A stretch of 42,139 bases of DNA from a virus. The notes under the pieces are model-generated. The model was given only the letters and a program-made list of their open reading frames with translations, did not search any database and was not told where the DNA came from. The DNA is taken from positions 1-42,139 of IMG/VR virus record IMGVR_UViG_3300009420_000025, one strand, 5' to 3'. Position numbers and translations under genes: made by a program. This document shows positions 1,867-8,456 of the stretch, piece by piece (position 1 is the first letter of the stretch; the number at the start of each line of letters is the position of its first letter).

Positions 1867-1946
1867 TGAGAGCAAAGGGAGTTGCACCCTTTAGCCATAT
1901 ACCAATAAAAGTCTGTCCTACTGTAAGTAGTTTCTTTGACGCTCTC
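1867..1946 (-). tRNA. tRNA-like element, anticodon unresolved
   Basis: An 80-nt element with a 7-bp acceptor stem (GAGAGCG with TGCTCTC, last pair G-T) and an adjacent T arm (AAGGG-TGCAACT-CCCTT) with a 7-nt loop. The T loop reads TGCAACT instead of the near-universal TTCRANN. The central part does not fold into a clean anticodon arm by eye; the best hairpin is CTACT-TAC-AGTAG. It starts only 6 nt after the 3' end of tRNA-Asp, supporting a tandem tRNA transcript. It could be a degenerate tRNA or a tRNA-like processing or decoy RNA. Confidence 0.5.
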
Positions 1947-2119: not shown

Positions 2120-2377
2120 TTAGTTTTCCGTGTATATGCCGAGGTAGATTTGAAACTGTCCCTCTCTCGTAATAAACGTATGTAGTTCACCATGCTCGTC
2201 ACATAGCTCCGTTAACTCGTCACATAGCTGTTTATATGTAAGAGCTGCTTCGCTAGGCGAACCGAACCCGCTGCTATCTACAAATAACTCCGTTATCTGA
2301 GTATAATCTGAGCCGATTACGTCTTCAAATCGTTCTGACTTTTTTACGTCGTCTAACGTGTCTAATGTAATGTTCAT
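2120..2377 (-). CDS. Hypothetical early protein, 85 aa
   Basis: Starts MNITLDTLDDVKKSERFEDV, acidic, probably a small alpha/beta protein ending in QFQIYLGIYTEN. The ATG overlaps the TGA of the upstream KLIAEFMG-family gene (ATGA), so it is coupled to the paralogue array and read from P2. No catalytic motif, Cys pair or membrane segment is visible. It is the last gene before the tRNA cluster. Function unknown. Confidence 0.8.
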   Translation of the reverse strand: MNITLDTLDDVKKSERFEDVIGSDYTQITELFVDSSGFGSPSEAALTYKQLCDELTELCDEHGELHTFITREGQFQIYLGIYTEN

Positions 2378-2697
2378 TTTACGTGTGTTTTAATAAATTC
2401 TACTACTGCCTTGTATGTACCACCTAAGTCTAAGGTTGATACAGCATCTACAAGGTTATCAAATGGTACATAGTGGCTCTCCGTTTTGTAGCACTTCTGT
2501 ACTACAGGCATCAACCAATCCCAAGAGGTGTGGTATTTTGAGTACTTAGTAATTCCTTCCATTACTTTCTCCTTACTATCTTCTGTTATGTAGAAGAATG
2601 GGGCATCACTCCAAGAGTGTATGTTACCCGCAATAGAGTCTAATGATATCTCATCATGCACCCCCATAAATTCTGCTATTAGTTTATTGTCTTTCAT
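2374..2697 (-). CDS. KLIAEFMG/WLMPVV family protein, copy 3 (107 aa)
   Basis: Starts MKDNKLIAEFMG and carries YHTSWDWLMPVVQKCY in the middle and a YKAVVEFIKT tail. I recognise this small family from many Flavobacteriia and their phages, where it is annotated as hypothetical. It is the third of three adjacent paralogues, which differ mainly in the linker between the N-terminal motif and the WDWLMPVV core. Both ends overlap the neighbours by ATGA. Tandem duplication of an early gene suggests diversification against variable host targets, but its role is unknown. Confidence 0.88.
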   Translation of the reverse strand: MKDNKLIAEFMGVHDEISLDSIAGNIHSWSDAPFFYITEDSKEKVMEGITKYSKYHTSWDWLMPVVQKCYKTESHYVPFDNLVDAVSTLDLGGTYKAVVEFIKTHVK

Positions 2698-3017
2698 GTT
2701 GGTTTATTTAAGTACGAGTATAATAAAGGCTCATTCGTAGGGGCTTCATCGCTATATGTTTTAATAAATTTAACTACTGCTTTATATGTGCTTTGAATAT
2801 CTACGTCAGTTAGATACATAGTTATATCTCCAATGCAGTCACCTTCTGCACCTGACTCGTAACACTTCTGTACTACGGGCATCAACCAATCCCATGAAGT
2901 GTGGTACTTCATTAGAGTCATAGTGTCAGGGTAAATTCCTGTACATATCATGGTTTCGTCATGGTTAAAAGTACCACCCCTACCCATAAATTCTGCTATA
3001 AGTTTGTTATCGTTCAT
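2694..3017 (-). CDS. KLIAEFMG/WLMPVV family protein, copy 2 (107 aa)
   Basis: Starts MNDNKLIAEFMGRGG, with KYHTSWDWLMPVVQKCYESG and YKAVVKFIKT further on. It is most like the copy that follows it, which shares the YHTSWDWLMPVVQKCY block exactly. The C-terminus (APTNEPLLYSYLNKPT) extends beyond the family core. Its start overlaps the end of copy 1 by 11 nt and its stop overlaps copy 3 by ATGA, so the three are translated as a coupled unit. Function unknown. Confidence 0.88.
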   Translation of the reverse strand: MNDNKLIAEFMGRGGTFNHDETMICTGIYPDTMTLMKYHTSWDWLMPVVQKCYESGAEGDCIGDITMYLTDVDIQSTYKAVVKFIKTYSDEAPTNEPLLYSYLNKPT

Positions 3018-3294
3018 CGTTATATGTTTTAATAAATTCTACTACTCTGTCGTACACCACCCCTATATCCATTGTTAGCAAGGACTCGTTGATAAAGTAG
3101 TGCTGACCTTCTTCAGGTTGTTGTGTGTCAAAGCATTTCTGTACTACAGGCATCAACCAATCCCAAGACTTGTGAAACTCCATATTTTCTAACTTAACAT
3201 ATTTACCTTTGTAATAATATTCTGTATTATCTCCAAATTTTTCATAAGGAGTGTATCCCCCCATAAATTCTGCTATTAGTTTATTGTCTTTCAT
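3007..3294 (-). CDS. KLIAEFMG/WLMPVV family protein, copy 1 (95 aa)
   Basis: Starts MKDNKLIAEFMGGYTPYEKFGDN and contains FHKSWDWLMPVVQKCFD and VVEFIKTYNDER. I chose the ATG at 3294 rather than the in-frame ATG at 3366: the extra 24 residues do not align with the two paralogues and overlap another gene, and the AAACCAATA leader motif lies 6 nt upstream of 3294. It is the most divergent of the three copies. Function unknown. Confidence 0.87.
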   Translation of the reverse strand: MKDNKLIAEFMGGYTPYEKFGDNTEYYYKGKYVKLENMEFHKSWDWLMPVVQKCFDTQQPEEGQHYFINESLLTMDIGVVYDRVVEFIKTYNDER

Positions 3295-3295
3295 G

Positions 3296-3457
3296 TTATC
3301 TATTGGTTTTGTCCGTGCTTGCGGACGATTTATAAAATTCGTGGTAGAAGTACTCATCGAACTCATCGTATATTAATGTGTCGTTGTTGAAGATGTCATT
3401 CCATACCTTTTTAGCTACTGCATATTCAGGCTTGTCTGTGTGTATTGTAACCTTCAT
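3296..3457 (-). CDS. Small acidic early protein, 53 aa
   Basis: A 53-codon gene starting MKVTIHTDKPEYAVAKKVW, with an Asp/Glu/Phe/Tyr-rich middle (IYDEFDEYFYHEFY). The ATG overlaps the stop of the upstream 71-aa gene (ATGA), and its TAA lies one base before the next ATG, so it fills the operon gap exactly. Its last codons (KTNR) overlie the AAACCAATA leader motif of the next gene. No family recognised. Confidence 0.78.
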   Translation of the reverse strand: MKVTIHTDKPEYAVAKKVWNDIFNNDTLIYDEFDEYFYHEFYKSSASTDKTNR

Positions 3458-4865: not shown

Positions 4866-4897
4866 CAAAGATAAGGTAGAACTTTCGAGATTCCAAA
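4866..4897 (-). promoter_or_regulatory. Early promoter P2 (TTTG-N20-TATCTTTG)
   Basis: A perfect Bacteroidota promoter on the minus strand: TTTG at 4894-4897, 20-nt spacer, TATCTTTG at 4866-4873. It drives the nine-gene operon from 4823 to 2120 and probably the tRNA pair and the two genes beyond. I see no terminator before the tRNAs. Confidence 0.85.
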
Positions 4898-5599: not shown

Positions 5600-5898
5600 A
5601 GTGCTTTTCTTAACTTGTTAATTGTGTGAAAAATATGGTCCTTACCACCTTTGCCATCTTCATCTATGGTTTCATCGTAGTGCGTTGATTCGGAATCGTA
5701 GTTGTAATCTACTAACCTCATAGATAATTCTTTGAACTCATCAAACTGCATACGTAGTTGCTCGTTCTCTTCACGTAGGTCTACAAGTGTGCTTCCTCTT
5801 TCCCATTTAAGTTGCTCGATTTCTCTCCCTAAACTCTCGGCTATTTTAATCGCCTCCCCTAATTTATACTCTAGGTCGGTGTTTTTTGATTTACTCAT
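5596..5898 (-). CDS. Coiled-coil early protein, 100 aa
   Basis: Residues ~10-60 (LGEAIKIAESLGREIEQLKWER... EENEQLRMQFDEFKEL) show clear heptad spacing of Leu/Ile and should form a coiled coil, probably a dimer. An acidic Asp/Tyr-rich segment and a short helical C-terminus follow. It is the first protein gene after the structured RNA region transcribed from P3, with the leader ACAATACAATAACATC directly before the ATG. Function unknown. Confidence 0.83.
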   Translation of the reverse strand: MSKSKNTDLEYKLGEAIKIAESLGREIEQLKWERGSTLVDLREENEQLRMQFDEFKELSMRLVDYNYDSESTHYDETIDEDGKGGKDHIFHTINKLRKAL

Positions 5899-5942
5899 GA
5901 TGTTATTGTATTGTGTATTAGATTATTTTGAAGTTTGAATTA

Positions 5943-6065
5943 GTGGGGCAAAGGGGAGTCGAACCCCATACTCACACCCTTGACATTTGCAACTGCCTAA
6001 GTGCTTTCATCCTCCGTTGCATATAGCGTCTTGTACATAGACACGTTAGCACTAGGATAATCCCA
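5943..6065 (-). ncRNA. Structured RNA with tRNA-like 3' end and Tyr-like anticodon arm
   Basis: On the minus strand the 3' part contains a canonical T arm (GGGG-TTCGACT-CCCC) followed by TTGCCCCA, as at the end of a tRNA. About 60 nt upstream is an anticodon-arm-like hairpin TGTCT-ATGTACA-AGACG with T33 and triplet GTA (Tyr). The 5' acceptor partner is poor (TGGGATT gives four solid pairs), and a 58-nt stretch with TGCAAC/GTTGCA pairing sits where a variable arm would be. It could be an insertion-bearing or decaying tRNA-Tyr or another tRNA-like RNA. No convincing protein is encoded here. Confidence 0.35.
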
Positions 6066-6073
6066 TATATTTG

Positions 6074-6234
6074 TACCGACGAAGGGTATCGCACCCTCTT
6101 CTCTATACACCTACGCCCTCTACTATCTGAAGCAACAGATTTCAGGGACATAGTGCTTGTGTGCAGTGCATTACTCAAATGCTACGTCAGTATGTTACGT
6201 TTATACTTCGTCAAGTTTTCCGAACTAAATCGGT
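6074..6234 (-). ncRNA. tRNA-like structured RNA starting at the P3 start site
   Basis: The RNA begins three bases after the P3 -7 box. Its first seven bases ACCGATT pair with CGTCGGT (six pairs, one a wobble, last position mismatched) 150 nt later, and that 3' strand directly follows a T arm GAGGG-TGCGATA-CCCTT. T8 and a D-arm-like hairpin AGTT-CGGAA-AACT follow the 5' strand. The interior holds further hairpins, including GCATT-ACTCA-AATGC on the plus strand (6168-6182). This resembles a tRNA domain closed around an insertion, as in tmRNA, but no tag frame or alanine identity pair is seen. Confidence 0.4.
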
Positions 6235-6237
6235 CCC

Positions 6238-6269
6238 CAAAGATACAACAGACTTTTCCAAATTCCAAA
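6238..6269 (-). promoter_or_regulatory. Early promoter P3 (TTTG-N20-TATCTTTG)
   Basis: TTTG at 6266-6269, 20-nt spacer and TATCTTTG at 6238-6245 on the minus strand match the Bacteroidota consensus perfectly. Unlike P1, P2 and P4 it is not followed by the GGC...GCC leader hairpin but directly by the tRNA-like RNA. It then reads the three protein genes 5898 to 4919. Confidence 0.85.
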
Positions 6270-6300
6270 TCTATTTTCTAAATCGCTGTAAATCAGTGGT

Positions 6301-6492
6301 TTAAGCATGGAATACTTGTTGAGGATTCTCTGCATATTCGCAAAGTGCCTGTTCGTACGCATCGTATAAATGCATGAGTATGTGACGTGGTGCATCGTTA
6401 TGATATGCAGTCGTGTATTCACGCCACGCATCTAGCTTCGCTTGTAGGTACACGTTAGGCGGGTTTTCGTTAAAGGTTTTTGGCTTTCTCAT
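6301..6492 (-). CDS. Small early protein, 63 aa
   Basis: Starts MRKPKTFNENPPNVYLQAKLDAWREYTTAYHND; a basic N-terminus followed by a helical, aromatic-rich body (MHLYDAYEQALCEYAENPQQVFHA). The ATG overlaps the upstream stop (ATGA), and AAACCAATA lies 4 nt before it. It is the last gene of the P4 operon, ending just before the P3 promoter. No known motif. Confidence 0.8.
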   Translation of the reverse strand: MRKPKTFNENPPNVYLQAKLDAWREYTTAYHNDAPRHILMHLYDAYEQALCEYAENPQQVFHA

Positions 6493-7262: not shown

Positions 7263-7291
7263 TGTAATTGGTTTAATGAAATTAATAAAAG

Positions 7292-7354
7292 TGGTAGTAA
7301 AAGGATTCGAACCTTCGGTTGCTATTAGTTCACAACCATACCAAGTAAACTACC
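7292..7354 (-). tRNA. Short tRNA-like element, D arm missing
   Basis: 63 nt on the minus strand. The acceptor GGTAGTT pairs with TACTACC (six pairs, T-T at the seventh), discriminator A. It is joined to a canonical T arm GAAGG-TTCGAAT-CCTTT. The middle folds as GGTTG...CAACC with an 11-nt loop, too large for a normal anticodon loop, and no D arm fits. It may be a degenerate tRNA or a tRNA mimic marking an RNase P/Z cleavage site within the P4 transcript. The anticodon cannot be named. Confidence 0.5.
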
Positions 7355-7392: not shown

Positions 7393-7551
7393 CTACCTCA
7401 GACAAGCATGTACATCTGCTACGTCCGAAAAGGCTCTTGGAAAGAACTCTTTGAGGTTTCTAAGCGTAGCTTTATCGCCTTTGTTAACCGCATTCAAGGC
7501 TACTAATTCAACGTAGTTGAACAGTGCGGGTTTCGTAGAGGCCACAATCAT
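7393..7551 (-). CDS. Small early protein, 52 aa
   Basis: A 52-codon gene starting MIVASTKPALFNYVELVALNAVNKGDK and ending FSDVADVHACLR. It looks like two amphipathic helices (LKEFFPRAF). The ATG overlaps the TGA of the upstream histone-tail-like paralogue as TGATG, implying coupling to that protein, so the two may work together. No known motif. Confidence 0.75.
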   Translation of the reverse strand: MIVASTKPALFNYVELVALNAVNKGDKATLRNLKEFFPRAFSDVADVHACLR

Positions 7552-8018
7552 CAGAACGGAGCGTTAGATGCTTCAAGCGTAGCTTCAAACGATTCAACGG
7601 TAGCCGCAACTTCAGCAGCTTTAGCTGCATTGTGACGGTCATTTCTCATGCGGTAATACGCCTCTGTTGGAGTTTCACCTTCTCTAACGACGAAGTCGTT
7701 ACTCGATCGGGTGGCCTTATGTGACGGAGGTACACCACCTTCCATCTCAAGGAATTCGGTTTTAACTACGTTAGTTCTAGCTTGGCGTTGCTCCATACGC
7801 TGATTGGAGTTTAAGTTCTTACGAACTTTCCGAGCCAATGGATTATCTTTCTTCTTCTTCGAAGAACTTGTCCTAGTTTCAGCTACCTCTGTAAGAGAAG
7901 CGACAGCCTCAGTTAACTCCGTTAAGAGTTTCAAGGCTAAAGCCTTCTTTTCCGCCGTACAGCTGTACTTGGCTTGGTTGACTGCCTTTCGGCAAGTCTT
8001 AAAATTTATATCTTTCAT
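7551..8018 (-). CDS. Lys-rich early protein, paralogue of the 104-aa protein (155 aa)
   Basis: Starts MKDINFKTCRKAVNQAKYSCTAEKK. The first ~50 residues repeat the N-terminal domain of the next gene upstream (CRKAVNQAKYS-x-TA...LLTELTEAV-x-SL). A basic stretch follows (SSSKKKKDNPLARKVRK), then a unique C-terminal half. I chose the ATG at 8018 because an earlier in-frame ATG (8093) lies in the strong hairpin and gives a non-matching N-terminus. Charge and likeness to H1-type tails suggest DNA or RNA binding; the shared domain may mediate oligomerisation. Confidence 0.82.
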   Translation of the reverse strand: MKDINFKTCRKAVNQAKYSCTAEKKALALKLLTELTEAVASLTEVAETRTSSSKKKKDNPLARKVRKNLNSNQRMEQRQARTNVVKTEFLEMEGGVPPSHKATRSSNDFVVREGETPTEAYYRMRNDRHNAAKAAEVAATVESFEATLEASNAPF

Positions 8019-8077
8019 TTTCAATGAATTAAATGGTTTACGAATTGTGGTTTTGGTTTCCCTTAGTAGTATTGTTA

Positions 8078-8113
8078 AGTAAAGAGAGTTCATAAATGAA
8101 CACTCTCTTTACT
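8078..8113 (-). promoter_or_regulatory. Long hairpin between the two Lys-rich paralogues
   Basis: AGTAAAGAGAG (8078-8088) pairs with CTCTCTTTACT (8103-8113), extended by TTCAT/ATGAA with a 2-nt bulge and a 2-nt loop, about 16 bp in all. The 3' flank on the minus strand (TAACAAT) is not a T tract. It could be an RNase III site, an attenuator or a stabiliser separating expression of the two genes. Confidence 0.6.
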
Positions 8114-8141
8114 AAACACTACAACTACTCAGAGCAGCTTA

Positions 8142-8456
8142 CTATGCTGAAAGCATAGCTAGTAATTCCTTCTTGGTTAACTTCGTTAAGTCAACCTTAG
8201 AAACCTTAGCTTCAGCTACTTGTCTAGCCTTAGAAGTCTTCGACTTCGCTTTAGCCTTCGGCTTAGTAGTAGACTTAGCCTTCGGCTTAGCAGTCGATTT
8301 CTTCTTAGCCTTCGGCTTCACTACTTCTAAAGAAGTAACAGCTTCGGTTAGTTCGGTTAATAAAGCTAAAGCTTTAGCCTTTCGTGCAGCAGTCGCTGAG
8401 TACTTAGCTTGGTTTACTGCCTTACGGCAGTCTGATAAAAGATTTGTATTAAACAT
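8142..8456 (-). CDS. Histone H1-tail-like DNA-binding protein, 104 aa
   Basis: First gene of the P4 operon and the outermost early gene. After an N-terminal helical domain (DCRKAVNQAKYSATAARKAKALALLTE), residues ~47-75 are Lys/Ala/Pro repeats of the KPKAK type, like histone H1 or bacterial histone-like tails. The C-terminus (VSKVDLTKLTKKELLAMLSA) resembles a short SAP-like helix pair. It is probably a nucleoid- or phage-DNA-binding protein. Expression should be strong and immediate given its position 41 nt after the P4 -7 box. Confidence 0.8.
   Translation of the reverse strand: MFNTNLLSDCRKAVNQAKYSATAARKAKALALLTELTEAVTSLEVVKPKAKKKSTAKPKAKSTTKPKAKAKSKTSKARQVAEAKVSKVDLTKLTKKELLAMLSA

Follow-up and report, generated by a model that had tools for sequence, protein, structure and literature searches.

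Two tandem tRNA-like RNAs behind a Bacteroidetes-type promoter in a phage genome: candidate tRNA mimics that do not decode

We analyzed a marine phage record of 42,139 nucleotides (referred to as the window), in which structural genes (terminase, portal) lie on the plus strand and a block of small genes lies on the minus strand. Behind a promoter on the minus strand, the window carries two tandem tRNA-like RNAs, elements A and B, which on balance we take to be genes for noncoding RNAs that mimic tRNA and do not decode. At the sequence level, both elements keep the outer parts of a tRNA, namely the T arm with a canonical T loop and a trailer with C at position 74, and their decoding half is enlarged or rebuilt. 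The predicted acceptor stem is well formed in A and in the relative of B. Across homologues, the top half of the tRNA is retained with compensatory changes, and the lower half differs greatly in length. The original prediction had described a single tRNA-like region of about 300 nt. This region is real, but it lies on the minus strand and comprises two tandem units that had been merged into one. The proposal that it represents a new phage noncoding RNA with tRNA-like ends finds support in homologues, positional conservation, and covariation.

Promoter, leader, and gene context

The promoter (positions 6238 to 6269, minus strand) has the form TTTG-N20-TATCTTTG (TTTGGAATTTGGAAAAGTCTGTTGTATCTTTG) and is of the Bacteroidetes type, for which the consensus is TTTG / TAnnTTTG (PMC7366714). 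The module is conserved in relatives and is presumably active. Judged from promoter type alone, the host would be a member of the Bacteroidetes. As had been predicted, no gene stands directly behind this host-type promoter: the approximately 290 nt downstream of 6269 to 6238 held no convincing ORF until a 100-amino-acid gene at 5898. The first part of this interval is a 46-nt leader (positions 6192 to 6237, minus strand; GGGACCGATT...AACAT) that contains ACCGATT. A second, looser copy of the Bacteroidetes-type promoter (TTTGGAATCTCG...TTATCTTTG) was observed at position 4897 on the minus strand of the window.

The promoter module was found in eight records, the window included. At three of the eight sites, a tRNA-like RNA begins 46 nt (element A in the window), 45 nt (a B-type RNA in record G001), or 44 nt (record G029) past the promoter. 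The leaders of 44 to 46 nt in G001 and G029 also contain CGATT, and CGATTC is present in leaders that precede protein genes. At the other five sites, a protein gene comes immediately after the leader, and no tRNA-like element is present. The element is therefore not needed in cis for the presence of the next gene. Taken over all loci described here, the position of the tRNA-like RNAs is fixed at certain promoters and gene gaps, and their presence is optional. Neither the region nor the structural genes gave a blastn match in the phage collection.

Element A

Element A (positions 6075 to 6191, minus strand) consists of an acceptor (ACTGACG/CGTCGGT), a D arm (GCATT/AATGC), a T arm (GAGGG/CCCTT), and the trailer ACAA. 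Both T arms named in the original prediction exist, GAGGG-TGCGATA-CCCTT at about 6098 in A and GGGG-TTCGACT-CCCC at about 5967 in B. The T arm of A, which includes one GU pair, runs on into CGTCGGT. The best partner of the latter strand is ACTGACG at 6191, which forms six Watson-Crick pairs and one GU pair and is followed by TA and the 5-bp D arm; ACTGACG is the likely closing strand. The prediction had instead closed the element with ACCGATT. The pairing ACCGATT/CGTCGGT has one mismatch and one wobble, its CGATT is part of a leader kept in relatives that have no tRNA-like RNA, and ACTGACG pairs better. We rejected ACCGATT as the 5' closing strand because it is leader sequence, conserved without a partner.

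The minimum-energy free fold of positions 6191 to 6071 contains the 7-bp acceptor, the D arm, a long hairpin at the anticodon position, and the T arm. Element A was assigned on the basis of this fold (z = -3.1), of a match in the scan described below, and of record G029, which shares the architecture and the site. Element A has the 7-bp acceptor and the 5-bp T arm with a T loop expected of a canonical tRNA. No 5-bp anticodon arm with a 7-nt loop was found in it, and the long hairpin occupies that place.

The A-type RNA of G029 has the acceptor CGGAGTA/TACTCTG, the D arm GCATC-TAAGGT-GATGC, a long hairpin, and a T arm (z = -4.3). In an alignment of the outer parts of these two sequences, 9 of the 17 pairs were changed on both sides, with the D arm and T loop conserved; the covariation of the acceptor is partly circular, since both RNAs were found by acceptor pairing, which does not apply to the D arm, the T loop, or the position. 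Pairing was retained in 97% of the cells, compared to 33 to 57% when the alignment was slid. The sequence of the long arm differs between the homologues and is not conserved. A 23-nt A-like match in record G013 sits in an apparent promoter and was dropped.

Element B

Element B (positions 5948 to approximately 6063, minus strand; its 5' end is uncertain) comprises three nested 5' helices, a GGCAGTTGC segment, a 4-bp T arm (GGGG/CCCC), the 3' strand TTGCCCC, and the trailer ACTA. It was assigned on the basis of a homologue in L002/G001, which opens with GGAAGAA and closes on TTCTTCT. The acceptor is weak in the window and well formed in G001. Taken alone, element B folds no better than shuffled sequences (z = -0.5; G001 copy, z = -1.2), so its support is comparative. 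Between the window and G001, 4 of 15 pairs were changed on both sides, and all cells were paired, compared to 45 to 60% in slid alignments; the outer-helix alignment is ambiguous by one gap, and the counts are from the MAFFT columns only. This covariation was equaled by 29 of 500 shuffles. We regard it as moderate support, from two sequences, for a putative RNA structure. The stem TGTCT/AGACG, which had been singled out in advance, is supported, as two of its pairs have both bases replaced in the relative. The Tyr-type anticodon arm proposed for the same segment is not supported: U33 is absent from the relative, and its loop is not 7 nt long; the candidate anticodon loop of B is not kept in G001. 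A canonical tRNA-Tyr stands 6 nt after B in that record. In a second pattern search for B, G001 was the only match.

In L002, a 16-codon frame (ATGGAAGAA...GCTTAG) runs over B. This frame is not kept in the window, where the start codon is absent and the stop lies elsewhere. We rejected a coding reading of B because the frame is not conserved between L002 and the window. A conserved ORF, the outcome that would have spoken for a protein gene here, was looked for and not found. A pseudoknot (ATGCAAC/GTTGCA) in the B of the window is not conserved in L002 and was dropped.

Comparison with tRNA, tmRNA, and introns

ARAGORN at default settings reported no tRNA or tmRNA in the flagged region, and Rfam at its own thresholds reported nothing there. 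With E values up to 10, the tRNA model RF00005 had no match in the region, and the only Rfam match was a 15-nt T arm against the tmRNA model RF00023 (12.8 bits; cut-off, 47 bits). The region is not a canonical tRNA: it has no standard anticodon arm and no RF00005 match. ARAGORN also made no call in 11 records carrying these RNAs, and the canonical tRNA-Tyr was the only find at five loci searched at Rfam gathering thresholds.

The suggestion that the region is tmRNA-like was abandoned. Its likeness to tmRNA is that the T arm matches the model, at a score far below the cut-off, and the phage elements are much shorter. In addition, the G3-U70 pair, which defines alanine charging, is absent; element A has U3-G70, and B in G001 has A3-U70. 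No tag-coding frame is conserved, the 16-codon frame of L002 being missing from the window. An intron-bearing tRNA, also suggested, is unlikely. No Rfam family matched a group I intron core in positions 5900 to 6320 at E values up to 10, and we are aware of no pathway by which bacteria would splice out an insert of 37 to 43 nt. Both A and the G029 RNA can be modeled as a tRNA when ARAGORN is run in its relaxed intron mode, but the proposals are inconsistent: the anticodon and intron site for A vary with the settings (Leu versus Ser), and G029 gives Asn.

Related tRNA-like RNAs in the window and in other phages

In 34 clade records (1.0 Mb), we searched for 5-bp T arms that carry a T loop and precede a 7-nt strand able to pair, through at least six Watson-Crick pairs and no mismatch, with a partner 20 to 135 nt upstream. 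The scan returned 25 matches (24 noncanonical and one canonical tRNA), compared to 3 in reversed sequence and 1.0 in first-order Markov sequence per 1.0 Mb; this clade-wide count is enriched, as some records were fetched as carriers of such an RNA, which is not the case for the window or the terminase-selected records. Two strict matches, one of them element A, lie in the window, where about 0.04 would be expected. By this count and by its fold, element A exceeds chance. The base after the discriminator, which was not part of the scan criteria, is C in nearly all matches, with minis (described below) taken with a 6-bp acceptor. The trailer N-C-N-A is common to the tRNA-like RNAs and the canonical tRNAs of the clade.

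The other match in the window (positions 1868 to 1946, minus strand) has the acceptor GAGAGCG/TGCTCTC and the T arm AAGGG/CCCTT and lies 5 nt behind a tRNA-Asp. This spacing, like the 6 nt between B and tRNA-Tyr in G001, is as in tRNA arrays. This RNA was also matched (1946 to 1864; 25.1 bits; E = 0.002) by R1, a covariance model that we built from a family with the plan GTGAG(T/C)G-TCTGG-[long hairpin, loop GTGATG]-[hairpin with TTTTATTGGTTAT]-T arm-C(A/G)CTCAC. The RNA at 1868 to 1946 carries the CTTTTATTGGT motif of this family.

Over a dozen phage contigs carry the GTGAGTG family. Its members are about 97 to 120 nt long (for example, L172:575-671 and L165:12646-12743), and in several records they lie downstream of a homologue of the window gene at 889 to 734. 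Of its 26 pairs, 7 are changed on both sides, and 90% of cells are paired, compared to 33 to 56% in slid alignments. The family is conserved in records without any tRNA called by ARAGORN. It keeps UCUGG after the acceptor, as in tmRNA. A match to the GTGAGTG pattern in L182, the only one in genome_contigs, was attributed to chance, as it has no T-arm stem and no tRNA call. A D-loop pattern (GGCAGTTGCAA) mostly returned ordinary tRNA-Asn and was set aside.

R1 also reached the G001 relative of B (20 bits) and a further RNA in the window (positions 7289 to 7354, minus strand; 20.2 bits; E = 0.05), which was assigned from this match and its fold. This RNA lacks a D arm and has the form GGTAGTT...TACTACC, with the T arm GAAGG/CCTTT and a 9-nt loop containing CTA. 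It occupies a gene gap, matched by its flanking genes, in which relatives hold minis of about 47 nt. The minis consist of an acceptor, a 4-bp hairpin with the loop A(C/T)AGG, and a T arm, with no anticodon arm. They lie between homologues of the window genes 8093 to 7551 and 7262 to 7107, and their acceptor pairs are replaced on both sides between phages. In G008, G009, and G017, no mini was found in this gap.

Near tRNA-Arg(TCT), at a place where a canonical tRNA-Ile(TAT) stands in other relatives, we found RNAs that resemble this tRNA-Ile(TAT) but have no D arm. These copies are at L122:3300 (minus strand), L065:7616 (plus strand), L088:3860 (plus strand), L160:1103 (minus strand), and L066:340-418 (plus strand). 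At L130:4100-4430 (plus strand; G046), three tRNA-like 3' ends are clustered at short distances from one another.

Possible function

According to our model, the promoter-proximal cassette would encode two tandem tRNA mimics. A and B would be transcribed first, by host RNA polymerase; RNase P and enzymes that act on tRNA 3' ends would probably excise them, and CCA would be added. The RNAs presumably do not decode, because they have no standard anticodon arm. They could act in trans as tRNA look-alikes by engaging a host factor that deals with the acceptor/T-arm half; candidates are a tRNA-attacking defense enzyme and a modification or maturation enzyme. This specific trans role, suggested by the optional presence and the position of the elements, is put forward tentatively, and the tRNA decoy role contemplated in the original prediction may hold. 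We favor an RNA cargo acting in trans over a cis element on two grounds: the element is missing from relatives that retain the promoter and leader, with a gene following, and the same site also accommodates a true tRNA. Going further, it is conceivable, if doubtful, that a clade of marine Bacteroidetes phages carries diverse non-decoding tRNA mimics, matured by the host, that serve as trans inhibitors or decoys of a host system acting on tRNA. Elongated, D-arm-less, and approximately 47-nt "top-half" mini forms would, jointly with the trans-decoy reading and with the same doubt, make up a kind of counter-defense RNA.

The main rival is that the elements act in cis in the manner of the t-elements of plant mitochondria. 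The latter undergo cleavage by RNase P and RNase Z and addition of CCA but are not charged (PMC11658184), and they make this explanation a live one. Cuts by RNase P and 3' enzymes at the tRNA-like fold would then define the ends of mRNAs, leaving the excised RNA as waste. The elements are indeed located between genes, on the coding strand, and only the top half is kept, down to minis with no anticodon arm. However, five of the eight relatives keep the promoter and leader without an element, three records lack the mini in the other gap, and loop sequences that would be dispensable for processing alone are preserved in the GTGAGTG family. We give cis processing a minority chance, though a serious one. 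Decay of ordinary phage tRNA genes after loss of function is unlikely. It would fit the weak acceptor of B in the window and the D-arm-less Ile(TAT)-like copies at sites where other relatives have the canonical tRNA, but A, B, and the GTGAGTG family each show compensatory changes, as three separate sets; that family persists in records without an ARAGORN tRNA; and the elements retain their positions and trailers.

We consider it improbable that these are genuine, unusual decoding tRNAs, in which A would have either a lengthened anticodon arm or a short intron and B a rebuilt arm. The normal acceptor, D arm, and T arm of A, the fit in relaxed intron mode, and the adjoining tRNA-Tyr and tRNA-Asp are consistent with such tRNAs; the shifting anticodon and intron assignments, the lack of a match to the Rfam tRNA model at E values up to 10, and the minis without an anticodon arm argue against them. 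That no RNA gene exists, and that chance tRNA-like matches overlie a short coding region, is hardly credible: the 16-codon frame of L002 could be read in this way, but its start and stop are not shared by the window, four stem pairs of B change on both sides, and the scan exceeds its controls. Non-decoding mimics are our preferred reading of A and B.

Like t-elements, the phage elements are tRNA-like sequences adjoining genes, as judged from folds and gene context, and have a tRNA shape without decoding (PMC11658184). By analogy, they may work as a t-element or as a tRNA mimic. t-Elements differ in being organellar, in being described as homologous to tRNA genes, and in lying at mRNA or rRNA ends, whereas ours are phage encoded, optional behind a promoter, and known from sequence (PMC11658184). 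The MALAT1-associated mascRNA is a tRNA-like RNA with a diverged D stem and anticodon region, released from a human long noncoding RNA by RNase P and RNase Z (PMC11658184); we do not claim homology to it. RNAC and RNAD of phage T4 are small RNAs that come from the tRNA region of T4 and have no known role (PMC3014915, PMC9697503); they belong to different phages and are likened to ours by description. Phage tRNA-type genes have been proposed or shown to counter tRNA-directed host defense (PMC10264068, PMC11555353). Those tRNAs decode, whereas ours lack a standard anticodon arm, and the likeness is one of gene type. In the open-licence papers searched, such a phage counter-defense RNA was not found described, which is weak evidence of novelty.

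These tRNA mimics may be counter-defense RNAs or a phage counterpart of mRNA punctuation by RNase P. Since tRNA-finding tools miss them, surveys of phage tRNAs may undercount. Optional, covarying mimics at fixed promoter sites make it possible to test why tRNA-like genes are carried by phages.

Two further features were observed. A long AT-rich hairpin (GGTTTAGTATAATATATC...GATATATTATACAAACC) follows the mini at G007:48470-48580 and G001:2965-3078 (minus strand), and a similar one is present in G008, which has no mini. In the window, positions 2374 to 3366 and 7551 to 8456 (both minus strand) hold tandem paralogous small genes, with MKDNKLIAEFMG occurring three times and CRKAVNQAK twice.
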